From: Saccharomonospora cyanea NA-134
GTDB lineage: Bacteria > Actinomycetota > Actinomycetes > Mycobacteriales > Pseudonocardiaceae
NCBI RefSeq assembly: GCF_000244975.1
Contig: NZ_CM001440.1
Coordinates: 5,041,498 to 5,105,497, forward strand
DNA: 64,000 nt
Direction of reading: 5' to 3'
The first letter of the stretch is position 1. Each line of letters begins with the position of its first letter. A program made the position numbers and the translations under genes. Below, in pieces: positions 13,374 through 19,526 of this stretch. The notes under the pieces were generated by a model. It saw only the letters and a list, made by a program, of their open reading frames with translations. It was not told the origin of the DNA and did no database searches.

Positions 13374-15950
13374 TCAGCCCGCGCCGAGACAGAGGAACGG
13401 GCGGCGGAACGGATCCACGGCGGTGGCCTCGGCGAGGGCCACCGCGGGCGACCTGCCGGAGGCGAGCCGTTCGTGGAGGTCGGCCATCGCTTCCGCCGAC
13501 GCGTTGTCACCGACGCGCGCCACCGCGCCGACCACCGTGCGACACCCGCTCGCCAGCAGCGCACCCGCGAACCCGAGCGCCTCCTCGCCCGGCCGGATGT
13601 GGCTCAACGCCAGTTCACAGGCAGCGAGCACCACGCGGTCCGGTGGGTTCGCCAGTCGCGCGGCCTCGTGCGCGAAGAGCGGTCCGTCCACAAGCTCCAG
13701 GCGGGAGAACAGCGCGTTCGCCGGTTCGTGGGCTCCGTGGGCGACGAGGTGAGCGAGCCCCGAACCGTCCAGTGCCTCCAGTACCGCGTGACTCGTCGCC
13801 TTCTCACCGTCCACGAGCCTCGCCGACGGGTACACCGACGTCAGTTTGCCCACCTCACCGACCGCGCCCGGCACACCGGGCCCGCCGACCAGCACCACCG
13901 GCTCGGATCTCCCGGCGCTCGCCGCGCCGAGCCACGCGGTGGCGGACGGAGCGACCGAAAGCGGTCGCCCGCGCATGCTCGGCAACGCGGCCCACGGCAG
14001 CGCGTGCAACGAACCCGTCGGGATGATCACCAGCTCCCGGTCGCCGAGGAGCGGCCCGAGCGGTTCGAGCAGCACCTCGTCGAGCCGGTCGGCTCGACGG
14101 CGTGCCGACGCCAGCACCGCCGTGGCGAGCGGCGTGGGCAGATGGTCCGGAGCGAGCGCGTCGAGGTCGGCCCGGAGCTGGTGAGTGATCTCCACGGCGT
14201 CCCCGAGCGGCCCCAGCCGCACGAGTTCGAACCGGCCGTCGCGCACCACCACGGCGGCGAGGGTGTCCGCGTGCCCCACGAAGCTCACCATCACGCGTTC
14301 ACCGAGCTCGGCGGCCACCTGGTCCGGCGCCGCCACCGGGCGCGGGCGGCCCCACTGGCTCGTGTACCAGCCGAGTCTGCTCGCCTCCCGCTGCAACCAC
14401 GCGTAGCGGTTCTCCAGCGCGGTCACCGGTTTGCCCGCGAGCCGGTTGTGCTGCACCGAGCGCTGGACGTGCCGCATCTCCGCGAGGTACTTCGCCAGCA
14501 CCGGATCGTCGATCGTGGGCATCGGCTCGTAGCGGTACACCTGGGCTCGCGTGCGTTCCTGCCAGCCGAACAACCGGCGCGCCCCGGCCTGCCCCCGGGC
14601 GCTCTCCAGCACCAGCCCGACGGCCAGGGTGCCCAGTTCGTGGCCGTGCACCGCGGTGCCGCAAAGCAGGTCCAGACCACCCATGCGATCACGTGCCCAC
14701 CCGAGTTCCACCAGCCCGGCCCGCGCCTGGGCCAGCGCCGAGCGCCGGTTCCGCGTGGCCACCGCGAGTTCGGCCCGGCACAGCCGTAACAGCATCCGGT
14801 GGTCGACCGGGCTGGTACGGCGAGGCTTCGGCACCTGCGCGAGCAGGGCCTTCGCCGTCTCCAGCTCCCCTCGCCGCAGCCGGAGGCGGACGGCGAGCAG
14901 GCGTGCCGCCGCGGTCTCGTCGCGCAGCCCGAGTCGCTCCAGCCGGTGCGACAGGTCCACGAGCGCCGACGGCAGCCGGGCGGGTGGCCGCGCGCACTGT
15001 TCGAGTACCTCGGTGGCGTCGGCCCGCAGCCGCGCGAGCGCGGCGACCTCCGCCCACGGCAGGTTGCCGCGCCTCAGAAACCGTCGTCGCGCCGACACCG
15101 CGAGGCGACGAGCGGTGTCGAACTCACCCTCCAGCAGCGCGGCAGCGGCTCTCGCCACCTCCGCCTCGGCCAGGTCCTGGATCACGCGGTTGCGCCGGAA
15201 CTCCGGCAGCGCCTCGTCCAGGTGGCGCGCGGCCTCCGTTGCGAGGCCCGCCACCAGCAACGCCCGCGCCTGGTCGAGTCGCACCCTCGCCACCCAGCCC
15301 GGTGCGGCGTTCTCCAGGATGCGCGCCGCCTCGTCGTAGTGCCGCAGCGCACCGGGGATGTCGCCGGTGAGCTGGGCGAGGTCTCCCAGTCCGTGCCGGG
15401 CCTTGCCCTCGATGCGGGTGAGCCGGTGTTCGGCCGCCAACCGGATCGCCTGGTCGAAGTCCTTGGCCGCCGCGTCGAGGTCGCCCGTCTCGGCGTGGAT
15501 CTGCGCCCGGTTGGTCAGCGTGCGCGCGAGCAGCAGCCCGTCGTCGAGGTGCAGCCTCTCCAGTGCCGGGATGATGGAGTCGAACAGCGCGACGGACTCG
15601 GACGCACGCCCCACCCGGAACAGCAGCAGGGCACGCTGTCCGGTGATGACGGCGCCGAGCTCCTGCCGTAGCGGGCCTTCCGGGAGCCGCTCCAGTTCGG
15701 CTCTCGCTCGCTTCAACCCACGGAACCCGTCGGCCGTCGAACCGACCTCGGCGGTCGCCAACGCCAGGCTGATGCGCACCCGGATCCGGGCGGCCACCCA
15801 CTCCGGGGTGTCGCGACCGGAACCGTCGATCAGGCGCAGCGCCTTCCGCAGCAGGCGGATGGCCTCGACGTTGTGCGCGCTCGCCGCCGCGTCGTTCGCC
15901 CGACGGTGAAGTGCGAGAACGGCGGGGAGGCGCGTGTGGTGAGGAGACAC
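13374..15950 (-). CDS. TPR-CHAT protein (caspase-like cysteine protease)
   Basis: An 858-residue protein without signal peptide or membrane segment. Residues about 1-480 are TPR-like helical repeats (HNVEAIRLLRKALRLID, HAETGDLDAAAKDFDQAI, GDIPGALRHYDEAA). A CHAT domain occupies about 550-858, with both catalytic residues in place: His738 in HLVAHGAHEP and Cys778 in VVLAACELA. Family knowledge: CHAT domains are clan CD proteases related to caspases and separase, and TPR-CHAT proteins act in Craspase and other conflict systems. It is the last gene of the six-gene operon, 10 nt after the 157-residue protein. GTG 15950 is the likely start. The substrate is unknown; the small upstream protein is a candidate. 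Confidence 0.9.
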   Translation of the reverse strand: MSPHHTRLPAVLALHRRANDAAASAHNVEAIRLLRKALRLIDGSGRDTPEWVAARIRVRISLALATAEVGSTADGFRGLKRARAELERLPEGPLRQELGAVITGQRALLLFRVGRASESVALFDSIIPALERLHLDDGLLLARTLTNRAQIHAETGDLDAAAKDFDQAIRLAAEHRLTRIEGKARHGLGDLAQLTGDIPGALRHYDEAARILENAAPGWVARVRLDQARALLVAGLATEAARHLDEALPEFRRNRVIQDLAEAEVARAAAALLEGEFDTARRLAVSARRRFLRRGNLPWAEVAALARLRADATEVLEQCARPPARLPSALVDLSHRLERLGLRDETAAARLLAVRLRLRRGELETAKALLAQVPKPRRTSPVDHRMLLRLCRAELAVATRNRRSALAQARAGLVELGWARDRMGGLDLLCGTAVHGHELGTLAVGLVLESARGQAGARRLFGWQERTRAQVYRYEPMPTIDDPVLAKYLAEMRHVQRSVQHNRLAGKPVTALENRYAWLQREASRLGWYTSQWGRPRPVAAPDQVAAELGERVMVSFVGHADTLAAVVVRDGRFELVRLGPLGDAVEITHQLRADLDALAPDHLPTPLATAVLASARRRADRLDEVLLEPLGPLLGDRELVIIPTGSLHALPWAALPSMRGRPLSVAPSATAWLGAASAGRSEPVVLVGGPGVPGAVGEVGKLTSVYPSARLVDGEKATSHAVLEALDGSGLAHLVAHGAHEPANALFSRLELVDGPLFAHEAARLANPPDRVVLAACELALSHIRPGEEALGFAGALLASGCRTVVGAVARVGDNASAEAMADLHERLASGRSPAVALAEATAVDPFRRPFLCLGAG

Positions 15951-15960
15951 TCCGCCGACG

Positions 15961-16434
15961 TCAGAGAACGACCGCGGGCGTCACCACTGTTCGCCGTCCG
16001 CCTTCACCGCCGACGTGGACGACGATCTGGGTGGTACCGCTCGGGACGTCGTTCAACACGAACCGGCCTCCGTCGTCGGCGACGGTCGAACACGTGTCGT
16101 GGCCCGCCACCCGGACCTCGACGGCATGCTCCCCCTCGGGGACGAGCCAGCCGTCGATACGGTGGCACGGCCCCGTCTTCGTAAGGTTGATCATGACGGT
16201 GAGGTCGCTGACGGTGAAGGTGATCGTCCCCTGGGTGACGCTGCGCACGCCCGCCATAGCGTCGGCCCGCTCCCACTGAGCCACCTCGACGTCGAGATCC
16301 TCCAGCGCGAGGGCGAACTGCACCCGTTCGACGAGGTCGGCGGGAGGTGGATCGAACTCGTCGACCAGCCGGTCGAGGTCCAGAAGCAGTGTGTCGAGTG
16401 TGTCGTCGTCCGGGTAGGAACTGCCCTCATGCAT
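15961..16434 (-). CDS. 157-residue two-part protein between sigma factor and CHAT protease
   Basis: Function unknown. Residues 1-60 are acidic and helical (DDDTLDTLLLDLDRLVDEFD, then DPPPADLVERVQFALALEDL). Residues 70-157 are all-beta with a carboxypeptidase-regulatory-like look (RIDGWLVPEGEHAVEV, GGRFVLNDVPSGTTQIVV). A variable linker joins them. No catalytic motif, zinc finger or membrane segment is present. ATG 16434 overlaps the sigma-factor stop by 8 nt, so the two proteins are likely made in similar amounts. I recall similar genes between a sigma factor and a CHAT gene in other actinomycetes but cannot verify this. Inferred roles are sigma-binding regulator, protease substrate, or both. 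Confidence 0.7.
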   Translation of the reverse strand: MHEGSSYPDDDTLDTLLLDLDRLVDEFDPPPADLVERVQFALALEDLDVEVAQWERADAMAGVRSVTQGTITFTVSDLTVMINLTKTGPCHRIDGWLVPEGEHAVEVRVAGHDTCSTVADDGGRFVLNDVPSGTTQIVVHVGGEGGRRTVVTPAVVL

Positions 16435-17140
16435 CCGCTGCCCCCTCCTGAGCGTCCAGCGTCTCCCGCAGGCGCCGCAGGCACCGGCCTCTGGTGGGCC
16501 CGATGCTCCCGCGCGGCATCCGCAACACGTCGGCCACCAACCCGTACTCGGCGCGGCCCGCGAGCACCGTCAGCCGGATCAGTTCCTGGCAGCGATCGGG
16601 CAGCGTGCGGAACGCCGCCCAGATGCGCCGGTCGCGGTCGGCCCGCATCGCTTCGGCCTCCGGCTCGGGCTGGCTGCTCGGCACGGTCTCGGCCAGCTCG
16701 TCGGTCAGCGGCACCGGGCGGCTCAGCCGTTGGGCGACGTCCCGGGACTCACGCCGCGTCGTGGTGATCAACCACTTCGCGAGCGCCTTCGGATCCTCGA
16801 TCCTCTCCAGATTCCGGAAAAGGGCCAACCACACGGTCTGCACCACGTCCTCGGCCGTGTGTCTGTCGAGACCGTTACCTCGCGCGACCTGCCACACCAG
16901 CGGGGTCAGTTCCTTGACCAGCCGGTTCATGGCTGTGCGGTCACCGGCCTTCGCCGCGTGCATGCACGCCGCGTACAGCTCGTGACCGTCCAAACCGTCC
17001 CACGACGGATCGGCCTCGGCCGTTCTGGCGTCGGTCAACGCATTCGCCTTCCCGGATCTCGGTGTCGATATTCGCGAAGGCAGTATCTCCGGCTGGTCGG
17101 ACCGACACAGCGTCTTGGTGGAAACCAATCCCATACTCAC
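16427..17140 (-). CDS. ECF-like sigma-70 family RNA polymerase sigma factor
   Basis: A 237-residue sigma factor with a short N-terminal extension, region 2 at about 60-135 (LTPLVWQVARGNGLDRHTAE, VVQTVWLALFRNLERI, KWLITTTRRESRDV) and region 4 at about 165-230 (FRTLPDRCQELIRLTVLAG, LRMPRGSIGPTRGRCLRRLR). There is no zinc-binding anti-sigma gene beside it, unlike most ECF loci. The GTG at 17140 overlaps the inhibitor stop as GTGA; ATG 17134 is an alternative. It overlaps the 157-residue gene by 8 nt. It is expected to redirect polymerase to a small set of promoters when released; what it recognises cannot be read here. Confidence 0.88.
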   Translation of the reverse strand: MSMGLVSTKTLCRSDQPEILPSRISTPRSGKANALTDARTAEADPSWDGLDGHELYAACMHAAKAGDRTAMNRLVKELTPLVWQVARGNGLDRHTAEDVVQTVWLALFRNLERIEDPKALAKWLITTTRRESRDVAQRLSRPVPLTDELAETVPSSQPEPEAEAMRADRDRRIWAAFRTLPDRCQELIRLTVLAGRAEYGLVADVLRMPRGSIGPTRGRCLRRLRETLDAQEGAADA

Positions 17141-17499
17141 TCGTTCGGGCTAGCGGACACGACGAAGCGAACCGAGCGGCGCGGCCGTGGGTCCCAGGGC
17201 CGCGCCAGCTCGGTTTCGATGAGGTGCCGGCCGGCGACGACGACGTCGAACACCAGCCGACGCACCCCACCTCCCCCAGGGGCCCCACCCCCAACGGGCC
17301 CCTTCTCCGGATGGCCGCCACCCCCACGGACGTACTCGTCGGCGACCAGCCGGACCCCCTCGGAAAGGCGCGATGACCAGTGGTAACCGGACGTCCTGCG
17401 CTCCGGGAGCCGCAGCTCCACGGTGTCGCCGACGCGGAGCCGCACCGGGCGGTCCGCGTCGGCCTCGGTGAGCCGGACGATCGTCACCTCACCTCTCAC
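17137..17499 (-). CDS. Chagasin-type (I42) cysteine protease inhibitor
   Basis: A 120-residue cytosolic protein with the three inhibitory loops of chagasin in order: RTSGYHW (about 35-41, family consensus NPTTGYxW), the Gly-rich loop GGAPGGGGVRRLVF (71-84), and RPWDP (100-104). The scaffold is the expected Ig-like beta fold (VGDTVELRLPE, RSVRFVVSAS). Chagasins block papain-family (C1) proteases, and a C1 protease is encoded two genes upstream in the same operon, so this is probably its cognate inhibitor. No signal peptide is present, which fits a cytosolic target. GTG 17499 follows a GGGAGG site. GTGA overlap with the sigma factor. Confidence 0.85.
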   Translation of the reverse strand: MRGEVTIVRLTEADADRPVRLRVGDTVELRLPERRTSGYHWSSRLSEGVRLVADEYVRGGGGHPEKGPVGGGAPGGGGVRRLVFDVVVAGRHLIETELARPWDPRPRRSVRFVVSASPNE

Positions 17500-17521
17500 C
17501 TGCCTCCCACCACCGGCGACA

Positions 17522-17552
17522 TGTCACCGGGCTCCCCCAGCACCCGGTGACA
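17522..17552. promoter_or_regulatory. Perfect inverted repeat between repeat protein and inhibitor genes
   Basis: TGTCACCGGG at 17522-17531 and CCCGGTGACA at 17543-17552 form a perfect 10-bp inverted repeat with an 11-nt spacer, in the only sizeable gap (131 nt) inside the operon. It could be an operator, an attenuator or an mRNA-stabilising hairpin. No T tract follows on either strand. Confidence 0.5.
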
Positions 17553-17574
17553 ACCCCCGATCCGGCGGTACTGC

Positions 17575-17607
17575 GGTGGCCGGCGGCCCCCTCGACTGCC
17601 GGCCACC
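17575..17607. promoter_or_regulatory. Second strong hairpin in the same gap
   Basis: GGTGGCCGGC at 17575-17584 pairs perfectly with GCCGGCCACC at 17598-17607 (10-bp GC-rich stem, 13-nt loop). It lies 24 nt after the repeat-protein stop. It may partly terminate or stabilise the upstream two-gene message and so set a different level for the inhibitor-sigma-CHAT part. The absence of a U tract argues against simple intrinsic termination. Confidence 0.5.
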
Positions 17608-17630
17608 TGCTCGACACGTGGGTCACGCCC

Positions 17631-18269
17631 TCAGACGAGCAGCTGATCGATGTGCCCACGTGAGTCCTCGTGATACGCCACCGGAAGCCGGTGGGTCCTC
17701 GCCAGCAACGCCAGCAGCACCAGGTGGCTGTGCCCGGAGTCCGATGCCGACGACAGCAGCCTCCACCCGATGCCGTGGATCGCGATCCACACGCCGGGGC
17801 TCTCGGACGCCGACCACAGGTGGGTGATCGAGGCTCCCTGGACCCAACCACCTGCCGAGGCGACCGAGGCGGGCCTCGCCTCGGTGTGCGGCACCGGCAC
17901 GGGAGCCGGCACCGGGGCGCCGGCGGTACCCGCGGTGCCCGTCAGGCCCGCCGTACCGTTGTGCGGCGGCTGGTACGGATCCCACCCGGTCGGCATCACC
18001 GGTCGAGCGGGCGGTGCGTACGGGTCCCATCCCATGGGCAGCACGGGCGCGGTCCGCACGGGCGGGGTGTACGGATCCCACCCGGCGGGCGTCACCGGAG
18101 CCGACCGCACCGGAGGTGAGTACGGATCCCAGCCGGTCGGCGCCACCGGCCGGGCAGGCGGCGTGTACGGGTCCCACCCGGTAGGGGGGAGCGGCGGCTG
18201 CTCGTCGGCCGTCGGCTTCTCCTCCGGCTCGGTGCCGTTGTCCTGGTCGGTGACCATGTCCTGCGTCAT
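17631..18269 (-). CDS. PxGWDPY-repeat protein sharing a C-terminal module with the C1 protease
   Basis: A 212-residue protein, function unknown. After a charged start (MTQDMVTDQDNGTEPEEK) come five near-identical units of the form PxGWDPYxPP spaced about 16 residues apart (about 30-105). An Ala/Pro/Val linker follows, then a compact C-terminal domain (148-212: ITHLWSASESPGVWIAIHG, IGWRLLSS, LVLLALLARTHRLPVAYHED, HIDQL). That domain aligns by eye with the last 60 residues of the upstream C1 protease. The repeats resemble multivalent Pro/aromatic binding motifs. ATG 18269 has an AAGGAAG ribosome site. The gene starts 17 nt after the protease stop. It may be an adaptor or substrate of the proteases. 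Confidence 0.75.
   Translation of the reverse strand: MTQDMVTDQDNGTEPEEKPTADEQPPLPPTGWDPYTPPARPVAPTGWDPYSPPVRSAPVTPAGWDPYTPPVRTAPVLPMGWDPYAPPARPVMPTGWDPYQPPHNGTAGLTGTAGTAGAPVPAPVPVPHTEARPASVASAGGWVQGASITHLWSASESPGVWIAIHGIGWRLLSSASDSGHSHLVLLALLARTHRLPVAYHEDSRGHIDQLLV
17967..18186 (-). repeat. Five tandem coding repeats, about 48-nt period
   Basis: The core unit TACGGATCCCA (or TACGGGTCCCA) recurs at about 17974, 18019, 18070, 18121 and 18165, each encoding GWDPY on the minus strand with Pro-rich spacers. DNA-level similarity between units suggests recent expansion by slippage or unequal crossing-over. Confidence 0.8.
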
Positions 18270-18286
18270 GTGCGTTCTTCCTTCGT

Positions 18287-19435
18287 TCAGCCGGCGAGTT
18301 GGACGGCGCCGAGTTCCTGCCCCACGACGAACGGCGCGCAGCTCAGTCCTCGCGCCCTGGCCAGACCGAGCACGGCGAGATCGGTGGTCTGGTCCCCCTT
18401 CCGCGACAGCCGGGCCCAACCCAGGTTCTCCAGGTACGCCCAGCTGTTGCCCTCATGGGCCGAGGTGAACAGTCCGAGCGCGCGCTGGGCGGGAAGCCAG
18501 GCGCGCAGATCCACACCCGTGCAGCCGAGGGTGGTCGGGCGCGGGTCCGGATAGTCCTCGATGAAGGCCTCTCCATAGGCGACACGCAGGAACCCGCTCT
18601 CCCCCCAGTCGCGTCCCCACGAGTTCTTGGCGATCCAGCACCCGGCGTCGTCGTCCCAGCCGATCAGCGCGACGCAGTGTCCGCCGCTGGTCTGCTCGGT
18701 GGTGTGCCGGTAGACGCCCCCGGTGTAGTGGAACAGGTCGTCGTACACCACGAGGCACGCCGTGACGGGCCCGTACGCGTACAGGTGCTCCTTGATCGCG
18801 ACCGGATCGCGGCTGAGGTCGACGACGTCACGTGCCCGGGCCGTCCGGTCGCGCCATCCCGGGTTGAGGGCGCCGGCGTCGTCGTCGGTGTACGGGTAGT
18901 GGTCCTCGAACGTGACACCGATGTCGCGACAGTCGGCGAGCAGCTCGTCGGGCCAGGTGCCGTCGGGCAGGATCGCCTCGCGTGCCGCCGCGTGCCCGAA
19001 GAAGAGGTGGGCCTCGGACAGGTCCAGTGCCAGCCCCGGCGCACGCCGCGTGTACGCCGCCGTGGACTCCAGCGTGGCCAGGACTCCGAACGCGCTGCAC
19101 GAGCCGCAGTCACCCTGGTCCTTCACCGCGGTGACGTAGTCGGCGCCGTCGACGTCGCGGAGGTCGAACGCCCGGGGCAGGTGCGGAGTCGACGCGTGCG
19201 GAGCCGTGGTGTCCCCGCCACGAAGCGCGAGCGCCGCCTCGGCCATGCGGGCAGGCAGCTCGGCTCGGGCGTCGATCTCCTCGGCCGCGGGCGCGGGCAC
19301 GCCGAGTCGGCGTCGGCGGGCGTCGCGCGCGAGCCTGCCGACGGGTGTCTCACCGCACTGCCACGGATCACCCAGTGCGGCCAGGGAGTCGCGGATCGCC
19401 GCGATCTCCGAGGCGCAGGGATGCTCTGGGCTCAC
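18287..19435 (-). CDS. Cytosolic papain-like C1 family peptidase with C-terminal accessory module
   Basis: A 382-residue cysteine protease. Order: a prodomain-like N-terminus (1-85), then the C1 catalytic domain beginning RAFDLRDVD. Active-site residues are all present: Gln107 and Cys113 in DQGDCGSCSAF (Ser replaces the usual Trp after Cys), His253 in GGHCVALIGWD, and Asn271 in KNSWGRDWGESGF. A 70-residue C-terminal module (312-382) resembles that of the next gene. No signal peptide is visible, unusual for papain homologues. GTG 19435 is chosen because GGAGG lies 4 nt upstream; GTG 19468 is in frame but has no ribosome site. First gene of the operon, 91 nt after the GbsR/MarR stop, with which it could be co-transcribed. 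Confidence 0.87.
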   Translation of the reverse strand: MSPEHPCASEIAAIRDSLAALGDPWQCGETPVGRLARDARRRRLGVPAPAAEEIDARAELPARMAEAALALRGGDTTAPHASTPHLPRAFDLRDVDGADYVTAVKDQGDCGSCSAFGVLATLESTAAYTRRAPGLALDLSEAHLFFGHAAAREAILPDGTWPDELLADCRDIGVTFEDHYPYTDDDAGALNPGWRDRTARARDVVDLSRDPVAIKEHLYAYGPVTACLVVYDDLFHYTGGVYRHTTEQTSGGHCVALIGWDDDAGCWIAKNSWGRDWGESGFLRVAYGEAFIEDYPDPRPTTLGCTGVDLRAWLPAQRALGLFTSAHEGNSWAYLENLGWARLSRKGDQTTDLAVLGLARARGLSCAPFVVGQELGAVQLAG

Positions 19436-19526
19436 GGGTCCTCCAAAGATCACCGAATCGGCTGACACTCCACAGGAGGGTGAGGCGGCCCCTCAGATAC
19501 ATCGGCGATCGAAAATTCTTGTGCGC

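Follow-up and report, generated by a model that had tools for sequence, protein, structure and literature searches.

Introduction

Several described systems join extracytoplasmic function (ECF) sigma factors to proteases. For the sigma factor group ECF54, the passages of PMC8999054 devoted to it (citing Huang 2015 and Casas-Pastor 2021) report conserved carboxypeptidase, subtilase and CHAT neighbours and mention a proposed control of the sigma factor by proteolysis without an anti-sigma factor. In the type III-E CRISPR Craspase, as set out in the corresponding passages of PMC10028731, Csx29 cuts Csx30, an inhibitor of CASP-sigma. Caspase systems with ECF sigma factors are treated as predicted conflict systems in the relevant section of PMC8195603; PMC7159879 also treats caspases, and the words CHAT and sigma are absent from its main text.

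Here we analyse a six-gene locus of Saccharomonospora cyanea NA-134 (contig NZ_CM001440.1), at positions 13374-19435 of a stretch of 64,000 nucleotides (nt) that we call the window. The host family is Pseudonocardiaceae and the phylum Actinomycetota, and the family and phylum samples below refer to these. The locus encodes a papain-like protease (C1), a repeat protein (GW), a chagasin-family inhibitor (I42), an ECF-type sigma factor (SIG), a small partner protein (P157) and a caspase-like protease (TPR-CHAT). It is a real, conserved gene set that is probably co-regulated, and we tentatively read it as a cytosolic, protease-gated sigma switch of ECF54-like type with a papain/chagasin output module.

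Results

Six genes conserved as a set

The features of the locus are as follows (positions in the window).

19471..19501, minus strand: promoter-like element TGTATC-N17-CTCCTGTG; GTATC starts 65 nt upstream of the C1 start
18287..19435, minus strand: C1, papain-like protease, 382 residues; Pfam PF00112 (Peptidase_C1), 1.5e-36
17631..18269, minus strand: GW, 212 residues; PxGWDPY repeats, then a C-terminal domain in common with C1
17137..17499, minus strand: I42, chagasin-family inhibitor, 120 residues; Pfam PF09394 (Inhibitor_I42), 9.8e-16
17039..17136, minus strand: I42-SIG intergenic region, 98 nt
16427..17038, minus strand: SIG, ECF-type sigma factor, 203 residues; TIGR02937, 1.8e-20; Sigma70_r2, 9.9e-11
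15961..16434, minus strand: P157, 157 residues, 8-nt overlap with SIG; candidate sigma regulator
13374..15950, minus strand: TPR-CHAT, caspase-like protease, 858 residues; CHAT at 618-842 (8.2e-30), TPR in the N-terminal part

The six minus-strand open reading frames (ORFs) are all present and carry Pfam matches where families exist, which bears out the single run of six genes described in an earlier note on this DNA. The catalytic residues named there, Cys113 (codon 19099-19097), His253 and Asn271 of C1 and His738 and Cys778 of TPR-CHAT, are likewise intact. Alignment of homologues places the start of SIG at 17038 rather than 17140, which would leave 98 nt between I42 and SIG; the operon then has two long gaps (131 nt between GW and I42, and this one) where the note had counted a single gap of 131 nt. 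A promoter/terminator scan of the locus returned no sigma-70 site, and a terminator-like site at 13314-13301, directly past the operon (about one expected by chance).

C1 relatives occur in 61 of 390 host-family genomes and 14 of 46 genera. We read 61 C1 loci from 60 of the 61 C1-bearing genomes (G260 was left out and G277 gave two loci), and SIG and P157 stand in cis at 47 of them. GW is present at 44 of these 47, TPR-CHAT at 37 and I42 at 30. All six genes occur at 28, counting one locus with I42 split over two frames (L002) and one with a diverged I42 (L004). Because the six genes stand together in 28 loci from eight genus groups (g1, g9, g15, g16, g19, g21, g26 and g44), the arrangement is far beyond chance, and the lack of conservation elsewhere that the earlier note had named as refuting its reading is not borne out. 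The other 14 C1 loci comprise ten divergent C1-GW-I42 trios (L048-L051, L053-L055 and L057-L059, all in g16), with no SIG, P157 or TPR-CHAT in the fetched stretch, two C1-GW-I42 loci without SIG (L020, and L073, which ends at a contig edge) and two in which the C1 is only a remote relative (L044 and L078). In a family sample of 120 genomes, C1 was found in 24 and a TPR-CHAT match in 77 (at the cut-offs used); by the listed coordinates, TPR-CHAT lies within about 5 kb on the same strand for 18 of the 24 C1 genes.

Outside the host family, C1 gave one weak match (1.1e-29, 105 bits) among the 395 other genomes of a phylum sample. In a phylum sample of 296 genomes, 12 held P157 relatives, the host's own included. 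At 12 distant P157 loci read from this sample, SIG is present at ten and TPR-CHAT is near on the same strand at six, farther away or on the opposite strand at two (L084 and L090) and absent at four.

A second collection, which overlaps the first in many species and so is not independent of it, supplied the best 80 of 135 P157 loci. SIG is found at 79 of these (the sole exception is a stretch ending at a contig edge), TPR-CHAT at 43 and C1 at 27; the 27 loci with C1 hold TPR-CHAT at 20, GW at 25 and I42 at 13. Neither GW nor I42 was found at any of 15 C1-less, family-type SIG-P157 loci of the first collection, which were chosen through CHAT hits so that their TPR-CHAT count of 15/15 is biased, nor at any of 47 C1-less loci of the second with sufficient upstream sequence. 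The gene set splits into the overlapping SIG-P157 pair, a frequent TPR-CHAT and a C1-GW(-I42) block, and the papain-GW-chagasin block is a variant nearly limited to the host family. Two stretches stand apart: L139 has I42 and no C1 and ends at a contig edge, and L140, a record under the title Rhodococcus rhodnii, has a Kibdelosporangium-type locus in an assembly that is probably mislabelled.

A quick tree of 107 distinct SIG-P157 pairs (98 rows with enough flank; many branches weak) needs at least five changes of C1, nine of TPR-CHAT in cis and seven of I42. Such patchy presence of C1 and TPR-CHAT would be unusual for a core developmental pathway and so counts against a role in development or stress, in which the relay would govern protein turnover within cells of the host family (during hyphal lysis or sporulation, for example). 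That role is favoured by the chromosomal flanks, whose genes are common to several genera, by the distribution of the C1 form just given, and by purifying selection on C1, with a ratio of nonsynonymous to synonymous substitution rates (dN/dS) of 0.09-0.24 in eight pairs of the form with Cys113. We consider it possible, though on the unlikely side.

A promoter-like element at the head of the operon

Upstream of C1, a two-part element contrasts with poorly conserved spacers. It is present in 48 of 59 C1 upstream regions and absent from the ten divergent trios and L020. We scored distinct regions for GTATC-N17-C[GT][TC][CT] in the 200 nt upstream of a gene: at loci with both C1 and SIG it lies upstream of C1 in 46 of 47 (the miss is L022), compared with 19 of 1139 regions before other genes of the loci read. 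Since C1 loci supplied the pattern itself, their score involves some circularity, and a fairer test is given by loci that begin with SIG: there the element precedes SIG at 22 of 32 loci with TPR-CHAT and without C1, where a few loci cut by contig ends were scored as C1-less. Because the element heads C1 in almost every such region and rarely stands before other genes, SIG probably drives its own operon, C1 included. This would amount to positive autoregulation, with a regulon that is perhaps very small. The conserved element puts C1 at the operon head, in line with the earlier note's view of the proteases and the sigma factor as one co-regulated system.

The operon element is the only exact match, in each of five genomes of the window's genus, of a pattern modelled on this genus. 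With up to two mismatches, the five genomes gave 18 matches in total against 51 for a reversed control; as the loosened pattern stays below its reversed control, we do not claim a wider regulon. A pattern with a different last base, which misses the operon, gave 11 matches in the five genomes against six for the reversed control. Two of these 11, L099 and L100, resemble one conserved site, with no correctly oriented gene start just downstream. A second sigma-type element occurs in the I42-SIG region at 21 of 47 distinct C1 loci and is lacking in the window, and the divergent trios have, by eye, a different conserved upstream stretch in place of the sigma element.

Were C1-GW-I42 a passenger module, unrelated to the sigma-CHAT locus at its side, trios without SIG might be met, and they are (the ten divergent loci and L020). 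Against this stand the gene order and element conserved together at 46 of 47 distinct C1+SIG upstream regions; moreover L020, apart from SIG as it is, shows a comparable element whose spacer is 18 nt long, recognised by eye and failing the strict pattern. We regard a passenger module as very improbable and retain SIG as the likely driver of the C1 genes beside it.

P157 as a candidate regulator of SIG

P157 overlaps SIG by 4 or 8 nt at 36 of 36 loci as annotated by the gene caller. In a wider count, for which the possible P157 start closest to the end of SIG was used and overlap thereby favoured, 104 of 107 distinct family pairs overlap by 4 or 8 nt and ten of 13 distant pairs by 1-8 nt. Such overlap resembles that of sigma/anti-sigma gene pairs. 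The structure predicted for P157 comprises two helices (residues 10-45), a low-confidence linker (54-67) and a beta-sandwich (69-151); the mean predicted local distance difference test score (pLDDT) is 72, with blocks in 71-140 at 84-93. Every one of 107 rows has Trp54, Gly62 and Val63, and a single row lacks Arg64, whether or not TPR-CHAT stands in cis, which makes the GVR motif of the linker (62-64) near-invariant.

The weak Pfam match of P157 is CarboxypepD_reg (0.01), which recurs in 29 of 29 P157 members at E up to 0.05 (best 2.5e-4); the window's P157 scores 16.6 bits against a cut-off of 32.3. A fold search returned fibronectin/Ig-like matches, none of them at E up to 0.001, and comparison with PDB sequences gave one match, at 0.75. 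Two P157 relatives were met in other collections. A Nonomuraea record of 11.85 Mb (L209), filed as a plasmid and likely chromosomal, holds one; the second, a weak relative with 33.9% identity over 70%, is MT838002.1:1777-2118, in a 7.5-kb record titled Bacteriophage sp.

Proteolysis could instead keep the sigma factor off: TPR-CHAT, together with the subtilisin or papain, would degrade SIG, and P157 would be an adaptor or chaperone only. Control of this kind has been proposed in print for ECF54, in the passages of PMC8999054 cited above, and P157 is without a match to an anti-sigma family. However, P157, likely the "carboxypeptidase" of the ECF54 context, looks like a regulatory-domain fold and not an enzyme, and the SIG-P157 pair is retained at many loci that have neither C1 nor CHAT in cis. 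The overlap of the two genes, so like that of sigma/anti-sigma pairs, also speaks against degradation of SIG, which we judge unlikely. We prefer to see P157 as a putative inhibitor of SIG.

TPR-CHAT and a subtilisin in the place of C1

His738 and Cys778 are invariant in 34 of 34 aligned TPR-CHATs, and at E up to 0.001 the genome has no CHAT match besides the window's TPR-CHAT. Among solved structures, 8rot comes closest to the CHAT profile (1.6e-5), followed from 0.011 onwards by chains that bear the names TPR-CHAT or CHAT domain protein and that we take to be Craspase subunits. Of twelve genomes chosen for a SIG-P157 locus without TPR-CHAT in cis, 11 were searched, and all 11 have TPR-CHAT relatives elsewhere.

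A subtilisin (PF00082) was confirmed in ten of ten neighbours of related loci that had been pre-chosen for a serine-protease motif or their position. Seven of the ten lie upstream of SIG or P157, like C1, and those of L033, L079 and L084 are placed differently. An ORF with the subtilisin motif lies within 3 kb of SIG, P157 or CHAT at 14 loci (the motif missed at least L081); the window and the C1+SIG loci, L044 excepted, have no such ORF at that distance from the core. L044 is the sole subtilisin-motif locus with any C1, and there C1 is remote and on the other strand. The presence of a subtilisin in C1's place in several relatives suggests that an intracellular executioner protease is the exchangeable output. 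Separately, at L033, L039 and L041 a subtilisin-motif ORF directly precedes TPR-CHAT, with no SIG or P157 found nearby; that of L033 is PF00082.

C1, GW and I42

C1 has no evident signal peptide (by eye), and procathepsins and cathepsins are the best Foldseek matches to its model, whose mean pLDDT is just 64. By hhalign, the last ~65 residues of C1 are related to those of GW (48 columns, P-value 2.6e-6, probability 88.6%). GW itself matches nothing in Pfam or NCBIfam at E up to 0.1; it has a fast-changing proline-rich repeat, varying in motif and number across genera (among the motifs are PxGWDPY, GAWDPNTPP and GGAYDPNTPP; L004, L014, L015 and L016). The I42 protein was rightly described earlier as chagasin-type with three loops: it matches the PF09394 profile and has the motifs TSGY, GGGG and RPW, which we take to be the three I42 loops.

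Among the 47 C1+SIG+P157 loci, 28 combine TPR-CHAT, I42 and Cys113, nine have TPR-CHAT and Cys113 without I42, two have I42 and Cys113 without TPR-CHAT, and one has Cys113 alone. The other seven (L019, L021, L023, L024, L061, L075 and L077) carry Cys113Ser, with His and Asn kept, and have neither I42 nor TPR-CHAT in cis. The Ser form never occurs with I42, as expected if I42 serves active C1; all seven fall in one clade (Kibdelosporangium and neighbours), so they represent at best one or few events. The Ser-form protein is a probable pseudoprotease or altered enzyme. Its dN/dS of 0.10-0.27 (15 pairs; six of the seven compared) is like that of the Cys forms, which suggests that C1 remains useful even in a form that has probably lost cysteine protease activity.

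Discussion

A proposed protease-gated sigma switch

We propose the following relay. P157, encoded by the overlapping next gene, would hold SIG inactive. TPR-CHAT would sense a signal through its TPR part, cleave P157 and free SIG, by analogy with Csx29-Csx30-CASP-sigma, and the cut might fall in the linker that carries the near-invariant GVR. SIG would then activate its own operon from the observed GTATC-N17-C[GT][TC][CT] element in a positive loop, and the operon would yield C1 as output, for intracellular proteolysis. GW, which shares the C-terminal domain of C1, is probably a scaffold or substrate of C1. I42, assigned to its family by profile like C1, would bind C1 where it is kept and set the threshold of proteolysis, as an optional safety catch. 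C1 is more likely an output than a controller of the sigma factor, because there are SIG-P157-CHAT loci that lack C1, whereas SIG accompanies C1 at 47 of 61 C1 loci; the earlier suggestion that C1 activity controls sigma release is weakened by the same distribution.

Several observations weigh against this relay, whose binding, cleavage, inhibition and transcription steps are all inferred. The element is absent from ten of 32 SIG-P157 regions with CHAT and without C1, and occurs in just four of 30 with neither (absent from 26). P157 matches no anti-sigma family, its weak match being to a carboxypeptidase-regulatory fold. GVR is kept in 34 of 34 loci without CHAT in cis, which leaves GVR unsupported as a CHAT-specific cleavage site. 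Two of the 12 distant P157 loci (L085 and L089) have no nearby SIG or CHAT, and the ten divergent trios have neither SIG nor the element. I42 was not found at ten of 40 loci with an intact C1 cysteine, so that the inhibitor, a brake in the earlier note's reading, is not an obligatory one. Within the window's genus, I42 is split over two frames in L002, has a dN/dS of about 0.7 between the window and L004 and was not found in L042, and it looks to be decaying in these close relatives. Tests for independent pairs on the tree (C1 with CHAT, I42 with C1) were uninformative, with too few pairs.

A relay of this kind might also serve abortive anti-phage defence, an outcome that the earlier note had raised, with infection activating TPR-CHAT and C1 killing the cell. 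A CRISPR defence effector provides the TPR-CHAT/sigma precedent that is backed by data (in the passages cited from PMC10028731), and caspase-ECF associations are predicted conflict systems (in the section cited from PMC8195603). Against defence, none of the six proteins matches the PADLOC 2023 models at E up to 0.1, four of ten flanking genes have domain matches, generic-looking ones only, and the flanks are, as noted, shared by several genera. P157 relatives, moreover, occur in just one plasmid-collection record (11.85 Mb) and one phage-collection record (34% identity). Having found no positive support in PADLOC, the flanking genes or the plasmid and phage collections, we think abortive defence improbable.

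Should the protease-gated switch be correct, the protease/anti-sigma/sigma logic of one CRISPR type would stand alone in actinobacteria, with interchangeable cytosolic executioner proteases. A broader and more doubtful proposal sees in SIG-P157-TPR-CHAT the Craspase relay's counterpart without CRISPR, scattered across the phylum: its caspase-like protease would cut a soluble anti-sigma factor, and its output would be an exchangeable executioner protease (a subtilisin, or a papain with a chagasin antidote), making up a bacterial two-protease cascade with transcriptional amplification. Because the proteins are small and soluble, P157-SIG binding, cleavage by CHAT, inhibition of C1 by I42 and use of the promoter are directly testable, and natural variants (Cys113Ser loci without I42 and CHAT in cis; C1-less loci) would be ready-made controls.

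Comparison with known systems

The likeness to Craspase/CASP, as described in the passages of PMC10028731 cited above, lies in a TPR-CHAT protease, an ECF sigma factor and a partner protein in one locus, and chains taken to be of Craspase type are among the nearest solved relatives of the window's CHAT domain. In contrast, the window's TPR-CHAT scores 18.5 bits against the Csx29 model, with a cut-off of 300, and no Csx30-like chain is among the PDB matches listed for P157 (the top 50 in the fold search). By the Csx29 score the locus does not qualify as Craspase proper, and a Craspase-like mode of working is loosely supported, by analogy.

The EACC2-caspase systems (the section of PMC8195603 cited above) likewise join a caspase-like peptidase to an ECF sigma factor, and also have a TPR protein. 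Their architecture differs, and none of the six proteins has an accessory domain of that kind by Pfam at E up to 0.1. C1 and I42 agree with the papain and chagasin families in family profiles, catalytic residues and loop motifs; here, unlike in those families at large, both apparently lack a signal peptide and stand in one bacterial operon with a sigma factor.

With ECF54 the window shares an ECF sigma factor with a CHAT neighbour, and the ECF54 description very probably covers the SIG/CHAT core here. Against NCBIfam, SIG matched general ECF models and no ECF54 model among the best 25 of 64 matches. The window's carboxypeptidase-like partner P157 has the look of a regulatory fold and not of an enzyme, and no subtilase neighbour was found by motif in the window, though relatives have one. 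Papain, chagasin and GW are unmentioned in the ECF54 passages of PMC8999054, and no description of the papain/chagasin version was found in the open-access literature, most subscription papers lying outside the search. The earlier statement that no described system combines these genes is weakened: the sigma/CHAT/subtilase context is in print as ECF54, and the papain/chagasin version goes unmentioned in those passages. The SIG/protease core has already been noted by others, and the papain-plus-inhibitor version looks like a new variant of it.

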